From Blattabacterium cuenoti (lineage in GTDB: Bacteria > Bacteroidota > Bacteroidia > Flavobacteriales > Blattabacteriaceae), in assembly GCF_014252375.1 (NCBI RefSeq), contig NZ_CP059221.1:444001-508000 (forward strand): a DNA stretch of 64,000 nt, read 5' to 3'. The number at the start of each line of letters is the position of its first letter. Position 1 is the first letter of the stretch. A program made the translations under genes and the position numbers. The notes beneath the pieces were generated by a model. It did not search any database. It saw only the letters and a list, made by a program, of their open reading frames with translations, and had not been told where the DNA came from. Below, in pieces: positions 50,712 through 64,000 of the stretch.

Positions 50712-51548
50712 ATAACAATAAATTGTTCTGGTACTTTATTAAAATTTGACAAACCAAAAATTATGGGGATTGTTAATTTAACTCCTGATTCTTTTTATGA
50801 TGGAGGTTTTCTTGATTCAGAATTAAAAATATTGAAACATGTAGAATTTTTAATAAAAAGTGGAGTTGATATTGTTGATATAGGAGGATGTTCTACTAAA
50901 CCAGGATCTAAAATAATATCAGAAGAAAAAGAATTAAAAAGAGTAATAAATCCAATTAGAGCAATAATAAAAAACTTTCCAAAAATTTTAATATCTATAG
51001 ATACGTTTAGAAGTAAAATTGCAAAAGAAGCAATAGAATCAGGAGTTGTTATTGTTAATGATATTTCAGGAGGTGAATTAGATAAAAAAATGTATTCAAT
51101 AATAAGTAAATTCCAAATACCATACATATTAAATCATATGAAAGGAATTCCAGAATATATGCAAAAAAATATTTTCTATAAAGAAAATATAATAATAGAA
51201 ATAAATAAATTTTTTTCAAAAAAAATTTTCTTATTGAAAAAATATGGAATAAATGACATTATTTTAGATCCTGGATTTGGATTTGGAAAAACAATTAAAC
51301 AAAATTTTCAATTATTAAAACATATAAATTTATTTGGTTTTAAAGATTATTTAATATTAATAGGAATATCTAGAAAATCAATGATAAAAAATTTATTAAA
51401 AATATATAACAATAAAAATTTATTAAATGCAACTTCTATTATACATACAATAGCGTTAATAAAAGATGTAGTAAAATTAATTAGAGTTCATGATGTTAAA
51501 GAAGCACTAGAATGCATAAAAATTATAGATTTTTATAAAAAAATTTAA
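50712..51548 (+). CDS. folP: Dihydropteroate synthase
   Basis: Joins p-aminobenzoate to the pterin in folate synthesis. Motifs NLTPDSFYDGG, CSTKPGS, VNDISGG, DPGFGFGKT, GISRKS and RVHDV are all present. The first ATG is at 50763, but 17 in-frame residues before it (ITINCSGTLLKFDKPKI) match the FolP N-terminus, and no ATG, GTG or TTG occurs between the upstream stop and 50763. I therefore place the start at the ATA at 50712, giving 278 aa; a truncated protein from 50763 (261 aa) is the alternative. Divergent from DUF1599. Confidence 0.9.
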   Translation: MTINCSGTLLKFDKPKIMGIVNLTPDSFYDGGFLDSELKILKHVEFLIKSGVDIVDIGGCSTKPGSKIISEEKELKRVINPIRAIIKNFPKILISIDTFRSKIAKEAIESGVVIVNDISGGELDKKMYSIISKFQIPYILNHMKGIPEYMQKNIFYKENIIIEINKFFSKKIFLLKKYGINDIILDPGFGFGKTIKQNFQLLKHINLFGFKDYLILIGISRKSMIKNLLKIYNNKNLLNATSIIHTIALIKDVVKLIRVHDVKEALECIKIIDFYKKI

Positions 51549-58006: not shown

Positions 58007-60069
58007 TTTAATTTTTCCAATAAATTTTTTCTTAATATATTATTTAAATATTCCATTTCATATAAATAATCAAATGAATTCTTTTCTTTAGAAAAACGTT
58101 TTTTAGGCTTTATAAAAAAAATACCTTTTTTTCCTAATATAGGATTAGATGTTTTATTTAGTTTTAACGCAAATGCTGCACCTAAAACTTTTGGTTCTTT
58201 TATAAGATTTATTATTGAATTATGAAAATTTACTTTATATGATTTGTTTATTCTTTTATAAAGAAAATTAGAAATTTCTTCTAAACTTTTATTAGAAAAT
58301 TTATTATGTAATATTTTATAAATTTTTTTATTTATAAGGTTAGTAATTAATTGATTTATTTCTTTAATAGAAGCTTTTCCATTATTAATTCCAGATAAAT
58401 ATACTATAAAATTATTTTTTTTTGAATCTACGAATATTTTTTTATCACCTTTTTTTCTTTTTTTTTCAAAAGACCAATTTATAATATCTTTATCCAATTC
58501 AGTATTTAGTCCATCAATATTCCATTGATTTTCTTTTATTTCTTCTAAAAATAATGTTTCAATTTTTTCTTTATTTGCATTATTAATTATTTTATTAATA
58601 TTAGAATATTTATTTTTTAATAAAAATAAATTTATATTTTTATTAATTTTATTTATAGTTTTTTTTGATGACTTCAATGTTTTTATTAAAAAACCAAATT
58701 GATATATGTTTTTTATATTTTTTTGATCATCTATTCTAATAATATTATAACCAAAATTTGATTCAGTAATTCCTATAGATCCTATTTTGTTTTTTATAGA
58801 AAAAATATTAAAATTATTATTTATAATATTTTGATTTTCATATTTTATCCATCCCAATTTTCCATTATTTATTCCTAAATTAACAAAATTATCTGATTTT
58901 TTTAAAAAAAAATTAAAATTATTAGGATGTTTTTTTAATTTTAAAATGATGTTTTTAACTATTTTTAGTGCTTCTTTTTTATTCCTTTTATTTAAAGAAT
59001 ATATTGCGTCTTTATGTGATATTAAAATATTACTAATTAATACAGAATCAAATATTGATTTCTTATCAGTTAATTTAACTATAATATAATTATTTTTATC
59101 CTTTATTGGTCCAAATACGCTACCTACTTTATCATTTTTTTTTAAAAAAAATTTTAGAATAGGCGGAATAGAATCTTTAGTATAAAAATTTTTATCAAAT
59201 GGTGTATCAGAATTTTTATAAATTATATCAAAATGATTATAATTATTTTTTAATTTATATGACAAATTATTCATAATTTTTTTCATATTATTTTCATCTT
59301 CTAATGAAGGAATAGAACGAAATATAATTAAACTTATATTCCTTAAATTATTTTTTTTGTATAAAAATTCATGTTTTTTAATATAATTATATAAATCATT
59401 TTTTGATATATGAATATTATACTTTTTTTCTATTTCTGTATATGGTATAAATATATAATCAATAATTGAAAAAATATTTTTATTTTTTAAATTTAATTCT
59501 ACTTCTTTGTTTGTTACGTTTAATCCATACATTAACATTTCTGCATATTTTTTCGTAATTATTTTATTTTTTATACTATTTTTTTCATAATTCCATATTT
59601 TTTTTTCAGATTTTATTTGAGGAAATAAATAGTATGGTAGTTTATCTAAATTTTTTATATATAATTTAAATTTTTTTACATTCATTTTTCCATTAAAATC
59701 TTTGAAATCATCTATTTTACTGTATATAGATCCAGTTTTTATATATTTCCAAATATCTTTTTCCGTATTTGTTATTCCTAGTTTATATCCTTGTTGACTT
59801 AATAAATTTTCGTTAATTAATAATCTAAATGCATAGTTTTTTAAACTAAGTTCAGAAACTTTACCATTAAATTTCCTTAGAAATTCTAAACAATTTTCAT
59901 ATTCTTTTTTAGAAATATTATTTCCATTTATATTTCCAATATAATTATTATTATTAAAAAAAAATTTTGTTATTAAATTAGGATCAATAATAAAAAATAA
60001 TAAGGAAATACTAATCAATGAAAATATTATCCATGTATTTTTTCTTATTTTATTTAAAAAATTCATCAT
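57967..60069 (-). CDS. Periplasmic peptidyl-prolyl isomerase/chaperone (PpiD/SurA-like)
   Basis: Membrane-anchored periplasmic folding factor; 700 aa. One N-terminal membrane helix (about 12-30), a SurA-type N-terminal chaperone region with GNINGNNISKKEYENCLE, and a parvulin-like domain (about 345-455) with KKSDNFVNLGINNGKLGWI. Bacteroidetes PpiD-like proteins of this size are usual. It assists outer-membrane protein folding, which fits the nearby corC-like gene, lptC and bamA. Its start overlaps the corC-like stop by 4 bases (ATGA). The 3' end carries a small tandem duplication. Confidence 0.9.
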   Translation of the reverse strand: MMNFLNKIRKNTWIIFSLISISLLFFIIDPNLITKFFFNNNNYIGNINGNNISKKEYENCLEFLRKFNGKVSELSLKNYAFRLLINENLLSQQGYKLGITNTEKDIWKYIKTGSIYSKIDDFKDFNGKMNVKKFKLYIKNLDKLPYYLFPQIKSEKKIWNYEKNSIKNKIITKKYAEMLMYGLNVTNKEVELNLKNKNIFSIIDYIFIPYTEIEKKYNIHISKNDLYNYIKKHEFLYKKNNLRNISLIIFRSIPSLEDENNMKKIMNNLSYKLKNNYNHFDIIYKNSDTPFDKNFYTKDSIPPILKFFLKKNDKVGSVFGPIKDKNNYIIVKLTDKKSIFDSVLISNILISHKDAIYSLNKRNKKEALKIVKNIILKLKKHPNNFNFFLKKSDNFVNLGINNGKLGWIKYENQNIINNNFNIFSIKNKIGSIGITESNFGYNIIRIDDQKNIKNIYQFGFLIKTLKSSKKTINKINKNINLFLLKNKYSNINKIINNANKEKIETLFLEEIKENQWNIDGLNTELDKDIINWSFEKKRKKGDKKIFVDSKKNNFIVYLSGINNGKASIKEINQLITNLINKKIYKILHNKFSNKSLEEISNFLYKRINKSYKVNFHNSIINLIKEPKVLGAAFALKLNKTSNPILGKKGIFFIKPKKRFSKEKNSFDYLYEMEYLNNILRKNLLEKLNKVLLEKSKIKFY

Positions 60070-61337
60070 TTTTTTTTTTTTTTATAAAAAATTACTTCTT
60101 CTATTTTGTTTTTAGAAACTTTTATAATTTCAATATAGAAATCTGGACTAATCAAAATTTTATCTCCATTATTTGGAATATTTCCTATATGAGTAACTAT
60201 TAATCCACCCAATGTTTCATATTCATCAGATTTTGGAATATCTAAATTGTATTTTGAATTAATAAAATCTACTTCTAAACGTGCAGAAAATAAAAATTTA
60301 TTATCATTTATTTTTTTGTCTAATAAAAAAATTTCATCATGTTCATCTTTTATATCTCCAAGAAATTCTTCTAAAATATCTTCTATTGTAATTAATCCAG
60401 CTGTTCCACCATACTCATCTAATATGATAGCAATACTAATCTTTTTTCTAATTAAAACATCCATTATTTCTCTTACCGGAGTATTAATATAGAACCATTC
60501 TATTGGCCTAATAATTGATTTATCTAAATATTTTGGTTTTTTTAAAAACTCCAAATAATGAACATATCCTATAACGTTATCTATATTATTTTTATAAATA
60601 ATAATTTTCGATAATCCACTTTTTGTAAATAAATCACGTATTCTGTATACAGAAGATTCCATTATATTAGAAGATATTATCTCTTTTCTTGGCACCATAC
60701 ATTCTCTTGCTTTTTTTTCATAAAAATTTAATGCTTTATGAAAAATATCAATTTTATATTCTGATAAAGAGCCTTTTTTATTAAAATTATGTTTTACATT
60801 TTTTGATAAAAAGTTAATTAAATCATTTTTATCAAAAATTTTTTTTTCAAAATTTTCTTCCTCGTCAAATATTTTCAAAAAAAAATTTGAAATACAAATA
60901 ATAAAATTTGTTATAGGTGAAAAAATTTTATATATGATATATACAGGAACTATAAATAATGTTAATAATTCATTTGAATATATACTAAATATCATTTTTG
61001 GAATAAATTCTCCAATTATTAAAATAACAATGGTAGAAATGAAAGTTTCTAAAAGGAATAACCACATAGAATCTTCAAAAAATGGAAATAACAAAAAAAA
61101 TATTTTATTCATGTAAATACCATATACAACCAAAGATATAGTATTCCCTATTAACATAGTTGTTATTAATTTTTTATAATTATTTATACATTCATAAAGT
61201 ATTTTATAACGAATAGAATTTTTCTTTTTTTCTAGTTCTATTTGAAATAAATTACAAGAAACTAAAGCCATTTCTATTCCAGAAAAAAAAGCAGAAACTA
61301 GTATAGTAAAAATGACTACACTAATATAAAAAATCAT
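60066..61337 (-). CDS. CNNM/CorC-type hemolysin-domain membrane protein
   Basis: Integral membrane protein with a DUF21 N-terminal domain of about four helices (1-190), two CBS domains (about 205-320) and a C-terminal CorC_HlyC domain (about 340-423); 423 aa. Motif EYGGTAGLITIEDILEEFLGD marks the second CBS boundary. Related Bacteroidetes proteins are named GldE, with a proposed gliding role; gliding is not expected in an endosymbiont, so a magnesium/cobalt or envelope role is as likely. It overlaps the ppiD start by 4 bases and follows lptC by 11. Confidence 0.88.
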   Translation of the reverse strand: MIFYISVVIFTILVSAFFSGIEMALVSCNLFQIELEKKKNSIRYKILYECINNYKKLITTMLIGNTISLVVYGIYMNKIFFLLFPFFEDSMWLFLLETFISTIVILIIGEFIPKMIFSIYSNELLTLFIVPVYIIYKIFSPITNFIICISNFFLKIFDEEENFEKKIFDKNDLINFLSKNVKHNFNKKGSLSEYKIDIFHKALNFYEKKARECMVPRKEIISSNIMESSVYRIRDLFTKSGLSKIIIYKNNIDNVIGYVHYLEFLKKPKYLDKSIIRPIEWFYINTPVREIMDVLIRKKISIAIILDEYGGTAGLITIEDILEEFLGDIKDEHDEIFLLDKKINDNKFLFSARLEVDFINSKYNLDIPKSDEYETLGGLIVTHIGNIPNNGDKILISPDFYIEIIKVSKNKIEEVIFYKKKKK

Positions 61338-61348
61338 TTTTTTTATTC

Positions 61349-61864
61349 TTATAAAGGAAGGACTCCACTAATATCTTTTAATTTAAAATTTTTAAGATTA
61401 TTATACATCTCTATACCTTTTTTAGCATGTAAAATAGTTCCATTTAAATTGGATATTGTTACATTTTTTTTATTAAATATTTTTTTTTTATTTTTATCCC
61501 AAAAAATTTCATCAGTTTTAAAAAAATATCCATTAGGGGTTAATATTTTAATATTTCCTTTTATATGAAAAAAAATCATTTTAAATGATTTCATCCAATT
61601 TCCTCTAATATAAATAAGTTTATTATTACTGTCATAAACAACTAAATAAATTCCATTAGGAAATATTGTATAATAGTTATATTCTTTAATTAAAGGTGAA
61701 TATATAAAATATTTTGTAATTCCATTTTTTTTAAAAAAAATACTTGTTTTTATAAAAATGTTTGATGGAATTTTATTTCTATTATATTTATAAATTTTAT
61801 TTACATTATCATTATCACATGATAATAAAAATAAAAATAATATAATAATTAATTTTTTTGATAT
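61349..61864 (-). CDS. lptC: LPS export protein LptC, lipoprotein form
   Basis: Periplasmic LptC-type protein that passes LPS from the inner membrane towards the outer membrane. The first ATG (61594) gives only 81 aa, but the frame stays open upstream to a stop at 61898-61900, adding a lipoprotein signal KKLIIILFLFLLSC with lipobox LLSC and further LptC-like sequence (NGITKYFIYSPLIKEYN, FPNGIYLVVYD, LIYIRGNW). No ATG, GTG or TTG lies in that extension, so the start is probably ATA at 61864 (171 aa) or 61873. Then ILTPNGYFFKTDEIFWD continues in the known part. It precedes corC by 11 bases. Confidence 0.8.
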   Translation of the reverse strand: MSKKLIIILFLFLLSCDNDNVNKIYKYNRNKIPSNIFIKTSIFFKKNGITKYFIYSPLIKEYNYYTIFPNGIYLVVYDSNNKLIYIRGNWMKSFKMIFFHIKGNIKILTPNGYFFKTDEIFWDKNKKKIFNKKNVTISNLNGTILHAKKGIEMYNNLKNFKLKDISGVLPL

Positions 61865-61913
61865 ACTACTTATTATTTTTATTGTAATTTTGTTTATTTA
61901 TACAATTTATAAA

Positions 61914-61986
61914 GGTATCTTAGCTCAGTTGGTAGAGCAAAGGACTGAAAATCCTTGTGTCCCCGGTTCGATTCCGGGAGATACCA
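61914..61986 (+). tRNA. tRNA-Phe (anticodon GAA)
   Basis: Complete cloverleaf: acceptor GGTATCT/AGATACC, D arm GCTC/GAGC, anticodon stem AAGGA/TCCTT around CTGAAAA (anticodon GAA), and T arm CCCGG/CCGGG with loop TTCGATT. The discriminator is A and CCA is not encoded. It lies between the lptC start and the bamA end. Confidence 0.97.
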
Positions 61987-61992
61987 CAATGA

Positions 61993-64000
61993 TTATTTTA
62001 TTTTTCCTATATTAAAACTTATTTTCCATTTTTTATAAAAATTATCTTCTATTGAACTTAATGGATATGAAAAGTCTATTCCAAGTATTCCAAATGGAGA
62101 ACAAAGACAACGTAATCCAAATCCAAGAGATTTATTCATTTCTAATGATGTTAAAGATTTATAAGAATTTCCAATATTTCCAGCTTCTATAAAAGAATTT
62201 AACCATGTTTTAAAATTATTACTTGATCCATTTATTAAATAATGCATTTCTAATGAAATTTTTTTATAACTAGTACCTCCATTTTTAGACATTTTATAAA
62301 ATGAATTATTTTCTGGGAAAGAATATCCCTTTAAAGGAATATGATTCTCTCCAAATTTTTTTGATGTACCACCCATATAAAACATATCGAACGGTGTAAG
62401 TTTTCTTCCAGAATCTTTATTGTATACACCTACATGTCCTAACTCACCTTGACATTTTAATACTAAATTTTCTTTAATTTTTTTATAAAAATTTCCAAAT
62501 AATTTTAATTTAAAATGTTCTGTCCATATGTTATTACTTTTACTATAATCAAAATGTTTAAAAAATGGAATATCAATTTTTCTTAAACCATTGTTTTTTA
62601 TATGCTTTTTTTTTGCAAATGAATTATATTCTTTTTTTTCGAAAAATGAATATGGTGGACTTGATGAGAAATAAAATTTTAATTTTGATCCATCAGTAGG
62701 AAAAAAATTATTTGGAGAAATAGTGTTTCTTTTAAAAGATAAAGAACAAAATAAATTATTAAATTTATATAAGTTATTATTATCACATATTTTTATAAAA
62801 TCAGTTTCTTTAGGAAAAGTCCATCTTTCTCCATGTATAGAAGTTGATATATTAGAATAAGGATCAATAAATTCTATATCTTTATCTAATCCAATAGACA
62901 TTTTAATTTTTCTTAAAAAGAATGGATTTTCTTTATCAATTAAACAATATTTAGTGTTAAATGGAATATCATTTTTTATTAGTTTATTTACAGAATAATT
63001 TGTATCAATTTTTAATGAAGTTGGTTCATCTTTTTTTATCCAAGGTTTTAATAATGAAAGACCAAAAGATTTCATATTTTTTCCAAATTGACTATAAAAT
63101 ATTATTTTATCTCCATCTCCTTGAGGTATTGTTTTCCAAAATTTCCAATTTATAATGTTTTTAATTGAAAAATTATTTAATATAATTTTTAAACCACCAG
63201 TTAATTTTCTTATATCATTTCCTATAATTCCTCCATGAAATTTAAATTCATTATTATCTTTTTCTAATACATGCCATTCTATATCTACAGATTCATCATT
63301 AATAGGAATAATTTCAAAATAAACTTTATCAAAAAGGAATAAATTTTCTATATTATGTAAACTTTCCATAAGTTTTTCAATAGAAAAAATATCTTTATTG
63401 TAAATTTTTATTTCTCTTTTAATTACATAATCTTTAGTAATATTATTACCTAATATTTTTATATTTCTAATATAAACAGGAGAATTTTCTTCTATAAGAA
63501 TATTTATATCAATTTTATTATCATCATCTTTTATTTTTTCTACTGTATTTAAATTAATAAATAAGTGACCTAATTTAAAATAATTATTAACTATACTTGG
63601 TTCTGTTGGATTAAAAATATTTTCTGTTAATTTTGTTTTATCATAAATATTTTCATTGTTATTATATGATATAACTTTTTCTAAATATTTATTACTTACT
63701 TTTTTATTTCCTGTAATATTTATTTTTCCTAAATAATATTTACTTCCTTCAACTATTTTTATTTTAATACCATAGTTTCCTGAACTAGTTTTCCAAACTG
63801 ATTCTAAAAAAACTTTGGCAAACCTATAACCTATAGATTGATATTTTTCTTTTATTTTATCTAAATGTTTATTTATTTGATCACTAACAAATATATGATT
63901 AGGTCTATTTATCAATAATGATAAAAAAGATTTATCCCTATTTATGATACTTAATAATTCTTTATCACTTATTACATTATTTCCATAAAAAACAAATTTT
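61993..64000 (-). CDS. bamA: Outer membrane protein assembly factor BamA (partial, 5' end outside window)
   Basis: Outer-membrane beta-barrel that inserts other barrel proteins. The minus strand is open from the stop at 61993 to the window edge, at least 669 codons. The TTG at 63915 is inside the gene: upstream residues (FYGNNVISDKELLSIINRDK) are POTRA sequence continuing to the edge. Several POTRA domains follow (KINITGNKKVSNKYLEKV, IRNIKILGNNITKDYVIKREI), then an Omp85 barrel (about the last 400 residues) with LKGYSFPENN in place of the VRGF-type motif. It ends with a Lys-rich KIK, not an aromatic residue. Confidence 0.93.
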   Translation of the reverse strand, partial: KFVFYGNNVISDKELLSIINRDKSFLSLLINRPNHIFVSDQINKHLDKIKEKYQSIGYRFAKVFLESVWKTSSGNYGIKIKIVEGSKYYLGKINITGNKKVSNKYLEKVISYNNNENIYDKTKLTENIFNPTEPSIVNNYFKLGHLFINLNTVEKIKDDDNKIDINILIEENSPVYIRNIKILGNNITKDYVIKREIKIYNKDIFSIEKLMESLHNIENLFLFDKVYFEIIPINDESVDIEWHVLEKDNNEFKFHGGIIGNDIRKLTGGLKIILNNFSIKNIINWKFWKTIPQGDGDKIIFYSQFGKNMKSFGLSLLKPWIKKDEPTSLKIDTNYSVNKLIKNDIPFNTKYCLIDKENPFFLRKIKMSIGLDKDIEFIDPYSNISTSIHGERWTFPKETDFIKICDNNNLYKFNNLFCSLSFKRNTISPNNFFPTDGSKLKFYFSSSPPYSFFEKKEYNSFAKKKHIKNNGLRKIDIPFFKHFDYSKSNNIWTEHFKLKLFGNFYKKIKENLVLKCQGELGHVGVYNKDSGRKLTPFDMFYMGGTSKKFGENHIPLKGYSFPENNSFYKMSKNGGTSYKKISLEMHYLINGSSNNFKTWLNSFIEAGNIGNSYKSLTSLEMNKSLGFGLRCLCSPFGILGIDFSYPLSSIEDNFYKKWKISFNIGKIK

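Follow-up and report, generated by a model that had tools for sequence, protein, structure and literature searches.

The window analysed here, 64,000 nucleotides of the Blattabacterium cuenoti genome (574 kb, about 80% A+T), carries on its reverse strand a frame for the outer-membrane transport protein LptC, which is open from stop to stop over 182 codons (61352..61897, with its own stop codon at 61349-61351 and a TAA immediately 5' of it at 61898-61900). Upstream lies the 3' part of what is probably bamA (61993..63999, reverse strand, open at the window edge and named from its context), and downstream a gene (60066..61337, reverse strand) whose product is, judging by sequence likeness, probably a CorC/HlyC-like membrane protein. 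A tRNA-Phe(GAA) gene found by ARAGORN (61914..61987, forward strand) is antisense to the lptC leader. The first ATG of the lptC frame is codon 102 (61592-61594), which yields the 81-residue open reading frame that a program lists at this place. As the first-pass annotation had recognised, this is the C-terminal part only: the frame continues upstream to 61897 and encodes the LLSC lipobox of a lipoprotein signal peptide (61817..61828, cysteine codon 61817-61819), and nowhere in the window does it hold an in-frame ATG, GTG or TTG upstream of codon 102. It matches the Pfam LptC profile (PF06835) over residues 17-174 with 21.3 bits, a borderline score against the curated cut-off of 21. Its homologues in relatives form one orthologous set, in which a hydrophobic run followed by an SC lipobox is kept, as befits the N-terminal lipoprotein signal of an LptC. 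LptC proteins are expected to adopt a beta-jellyroll fold; an AlphaFold2 model of this one is of low confidence (mean pLDDT 53), and its strands begin only at about residue 68.

The missing start is shared by most of the genus. Among 49 Blattabacterium genomes an lptC orthologue was matched in 42 (the two named genomes among the matches are both Blattabacterium cuenoti strains), and we read the 5' ends at 41 of these 42 loci, aligned on the tRNA-Phe gene and leaving out G046. A standard start was considered usable when it lay in frame and 14 or more codons ahead of the lipobox cysteine, a distance that leaves a usable signal peptide. Such a start is absent upstream of the conserved N-terminal sequence at 37 of the 41 loci, and at 30 of the 41 the interval that separates the tRNA and the signal peptide is free of standard starts whatever the frame, although these loci share ancestry and the counts overstate their independence. 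The loci of G036 and G060 likewise have none. In the four exceptions a standard start is possible: an ATG lies upstream in frame in G020, G051 and G043, each time at a different place, and a TTG lies downstream in frame in G058. Other genes nearly always have ATG at their consensus start position (387 of 405 gene-by-genome tests in the window with eight genomes, 528 of 598 in a 200-kb block with four), which places the shared absence in lptC beyond chance. The first-pass annotation had named two findings that would undo its case, a sequencing error hiding an ATG or TTG and a lack of conservation of the upstream peptide. Neither came about: sequencing error is excluded by the recurrence of the absence in most genomes of the genus, and the peptide with its lipobox is conserved. 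Elsewhere in the order, in the sample that we read, most lptC genes do carry an ATG in frame close to the signal, and so the AUA appears to be derived within Blattabacterium.

We then anchored 33 lptC loci on a conserved pair of residues, Ile/Val followed by Ser/Arg, requiring nothing before the pair and thus assuming no start. Two codons ahead of the conserved Ser/Arg (61874..61876 in the window), 32 of the 33 anchored loci have ATA, so that the same near-cognate codon is kept at the putative start position. The neighbouring, anchoring codon (61871..61873) is also ATA in the window and varies among the loci (ATA in 19, ATC in nine, ATT in four and GTT in one). On the locus tree the neighbour changes five times and the preceding ATA once, while well-conserved isoleucine codons inside the LptC domain change 5, 8, 5, 7, 7 and 1 times, a contrast that is suggestive and does not amount to a formal test. 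Because the first codon is nearly invariant while the next one varies, we favour 61876-61874 as the start over 61873. The earlier proposal of an AUA start thus gains from the genus comparison in its substance and loses in its coordinates: both ATA codons it had pointed to are real, but the one nearer the lipobox (61862..61864) is not conserved, the one at 61873 is the less likely start, and the conserved ATA adjacent to the latter had been overlooked. Counted from the AUA at 61876, the product would have 175 residues. The codon before the ATA is mostly AAA or ACA, which puts an A at -3 in most relatives. A start-context profile was too weak to choose among the codons, showing A enrichment only.

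We consider it likely that the intact lptC is translated from the AUA at 61876-61874, and the comparison as a whole suggests that synthesis of the protein begins at this codon, one rarely used by bacteria. Less probably by far, translation could begin at another nearby non-AUG codon, either the one at 61873 or an AUU in some lineages. This would suit G041 and G067, where the ATA is absent and the stretch from the stop to the signal peptide keeps only GTA and ATT, which would make AUU or GUA necessary there (AUU may serve), as well as G065, the single anchored locus with TAT in place of the ATA, where the following codon is ATA. It sits badly with the variability of that following codon, which has become GTT in G009, next to an almost unchanging ATA.

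The opposite strand offers a different reason for conservation. The sequence TAATTTTG (61885..61892, forward strand, opposite to lptC) matches the Bacteroidetes -7 promoter element TAnnTTTG (PMC6847099) and would belong to tRNA-Phe; the box is kept in relatives, where it precedes the tRNA by 22 to 29 bp. Box and tRNA gene together take up 61885-61987, and the box overlaps the 5' region of lptC. It is quite improbable, in our judgement, that the ATA block is conserved merely as DNA of this promoter and says nothing about the start of lptC. The box adjoins the ATA and does account for the conserved CAAAAnTA, which reflects the element on the other strand. However, box and ATA stand anywhere from 2 to 19 nt apart across loci, so that a fixed -33/-7 promoter geometry fails to account for the ATA, and lptC would be left without any start. 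In the predicted RNA of the lptC leader, a stable fold of the antisense tRNA sequence lies upstream and the AUA is unpaired in the minimum-energy structure.

There remains the question of whether lptC is a working gene. Seven of the 49 genomes gave no lptC match (G049, G056, G057, G059, G061, G062 and G064), through lineage loss or excess divergence, and in four or more others the frame is disrupted near the lipobox. In G020, G034, G031 and G060 (loci L014, L028, L030 and L069) the break falls just after the lipobox, near A runs, and may reflect slippage or decay. The gene is dispensable in some Blattabacterium lineages, as these seven absences and at least four breakages indicate, and both observations would fit a gene that is decaying and no longer translated with its signal peptide. 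For the genus at large we hold this very unlikely, since most relatives, whose proteins are 43 to 61% identical to that of the window, keep both the frame and the lipobox intact, which would be unexpected for an untranslated gene at such a base composition; a frame that stays open in most relatives at about 80% A+T argues for selection on lptC. Delivery of ribosomes from a standard start further upstream, whether by frameshifting, by slippage of the polymerase on runs of A or by reading through from the preceding gene, has just as slim a chance: A-rich runs are common and poly(A) slippage occurs in other endosymbionts, but 30 of the 41 loci, as noted, lack standard starts of any frame over the interval from tRNA to signal peptide, and one TTG within the antisense tRNA sequence meets, by eye, a stop at the end of that sequence.

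How would a ribosome start at the AUA? The absence of a Shine-Dalgarno sequence is the normal state in this bacterium's phylum, and among 867 ATG starts with good support, only 4% have a motif of that kind upstream. Flavobacterium genes, too, lack such motifs, and an A at -3 favours initiation there (PMC6847099). On the lptC leader, initiation would proceed without such a sequence, the initiator fMet-tRNA (anticodon CAU) pairing with the AUA despite the mismatch at the third position. That the ordinary initiator tRNA could do this is plausible by analogy, because in Staphylococcus aureus reporters the non-canonical AUA and AUU sites tested yield about 10 to 30% of AUG (PMC13009471). The weak codon would keep LptC synthesis low, at a level set by the strictness of IF3 against non-AUG codons, as for infC. 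The comparison shows the frame, its conservation, the lack of standard starts and the conserved ATA; that initiation takes place at this codon, how efficient it is and whether IF3 controls it are inferred. IF3 is present in all 49 genomes of the genus; an altered IF3 as the cause of AUA starts was considered and dropped, its alignment to E. coli IF3 being that of an ordinary protein. Going further, one may speculate, with far more doubt than belief, that selection for weak and regulated initiation maintains the AUA, and that Blattabacterium has a few genes, including infC and lptC, whose output IF3 stringency gates with no help from Shine-Dalgarno sequences. Transport of LPS to the outer membrane would then be tied to how the translation apparatus stands.

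Conserved weak starts have precedents. The pcnB gene of E. coli starts with AUU and resembles lptC in that a weak start is fixed in one more gene besides infC, although gene and codon (AUU versus AUA) differ. In infC itself, a conserved AUU or AUA replaces AUG as in lptC, and the gene is autocontrolled by IF3. However, infC encodes the discriminating factor and lptC does not, and we know of no regulatory loop for lptC. In S. aureus, AUA starts of infC and ccpN have been demonstrated experimentally (PMC13009471), and lptC would be a further case of this kind of gene. In Staphylococcus, ccpN (AUA) and cvfC1 (AUU) show that outside infC, too, a non-AUG start can be conserved and reduce initiation, as it would in lptC, but they rely on extended Shine-Dalgarno motifs (PMC13009471), which the Blattabacterium genes do not have.

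The AUA of infC is shared between S. aureus (PMC13009471) and Blattabacterium, where ATA precedes the KKKF residues in 24 of 24 genomes, mostly with no earlier standard start (loci L129, at about 168253 of G000:C1, L101-L120, L140, L150 and L160). Many infC frames in a sample of the class Bacteroidia also have no standard start, often with an ATA, by eye, at the expected place. A search for start-less genes, as the first-pass annotation had advised, brought up infC as a companion of lptC, and these two are the only genus-wide cases of the AUA type that we found. A general use of AUA starts in the genome was rejected, the window and the 200-kb block giving folP alone as a clean case. Most positions without ATG at the consensus start have a nearby alternative, and folP is the sole clean replacement of ATG by ATA without one in about 1000 gene-by-genome tests. 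The ATA of folP (50712..50714, forward strand), which had been put forward as a second AUA start beside lptC, is indeed there, but all 29 relatives read, including the closest, have ATG, which supports a change private to this genome.

Blattabacterium is a cockroach symbiont, and its lptC offers a natural setting, free of Shine-Dalgarno sequences, in which to study AUA initiation. Across nearly the whole genus, lptC would be overlooked or cut short by any gene finder restricted to ATG, GTG and TTG, as would infC, and this distorts statements on gene loss in these symbionts. The CorC-like gene downstream looked for a time like another AUA start, with ATA at the ATG position in one clade. This was discarded: the clade shares an in-frame GTG (once ATG) about eight codons upstream, and this upstream codon overlaps the end of lptC.
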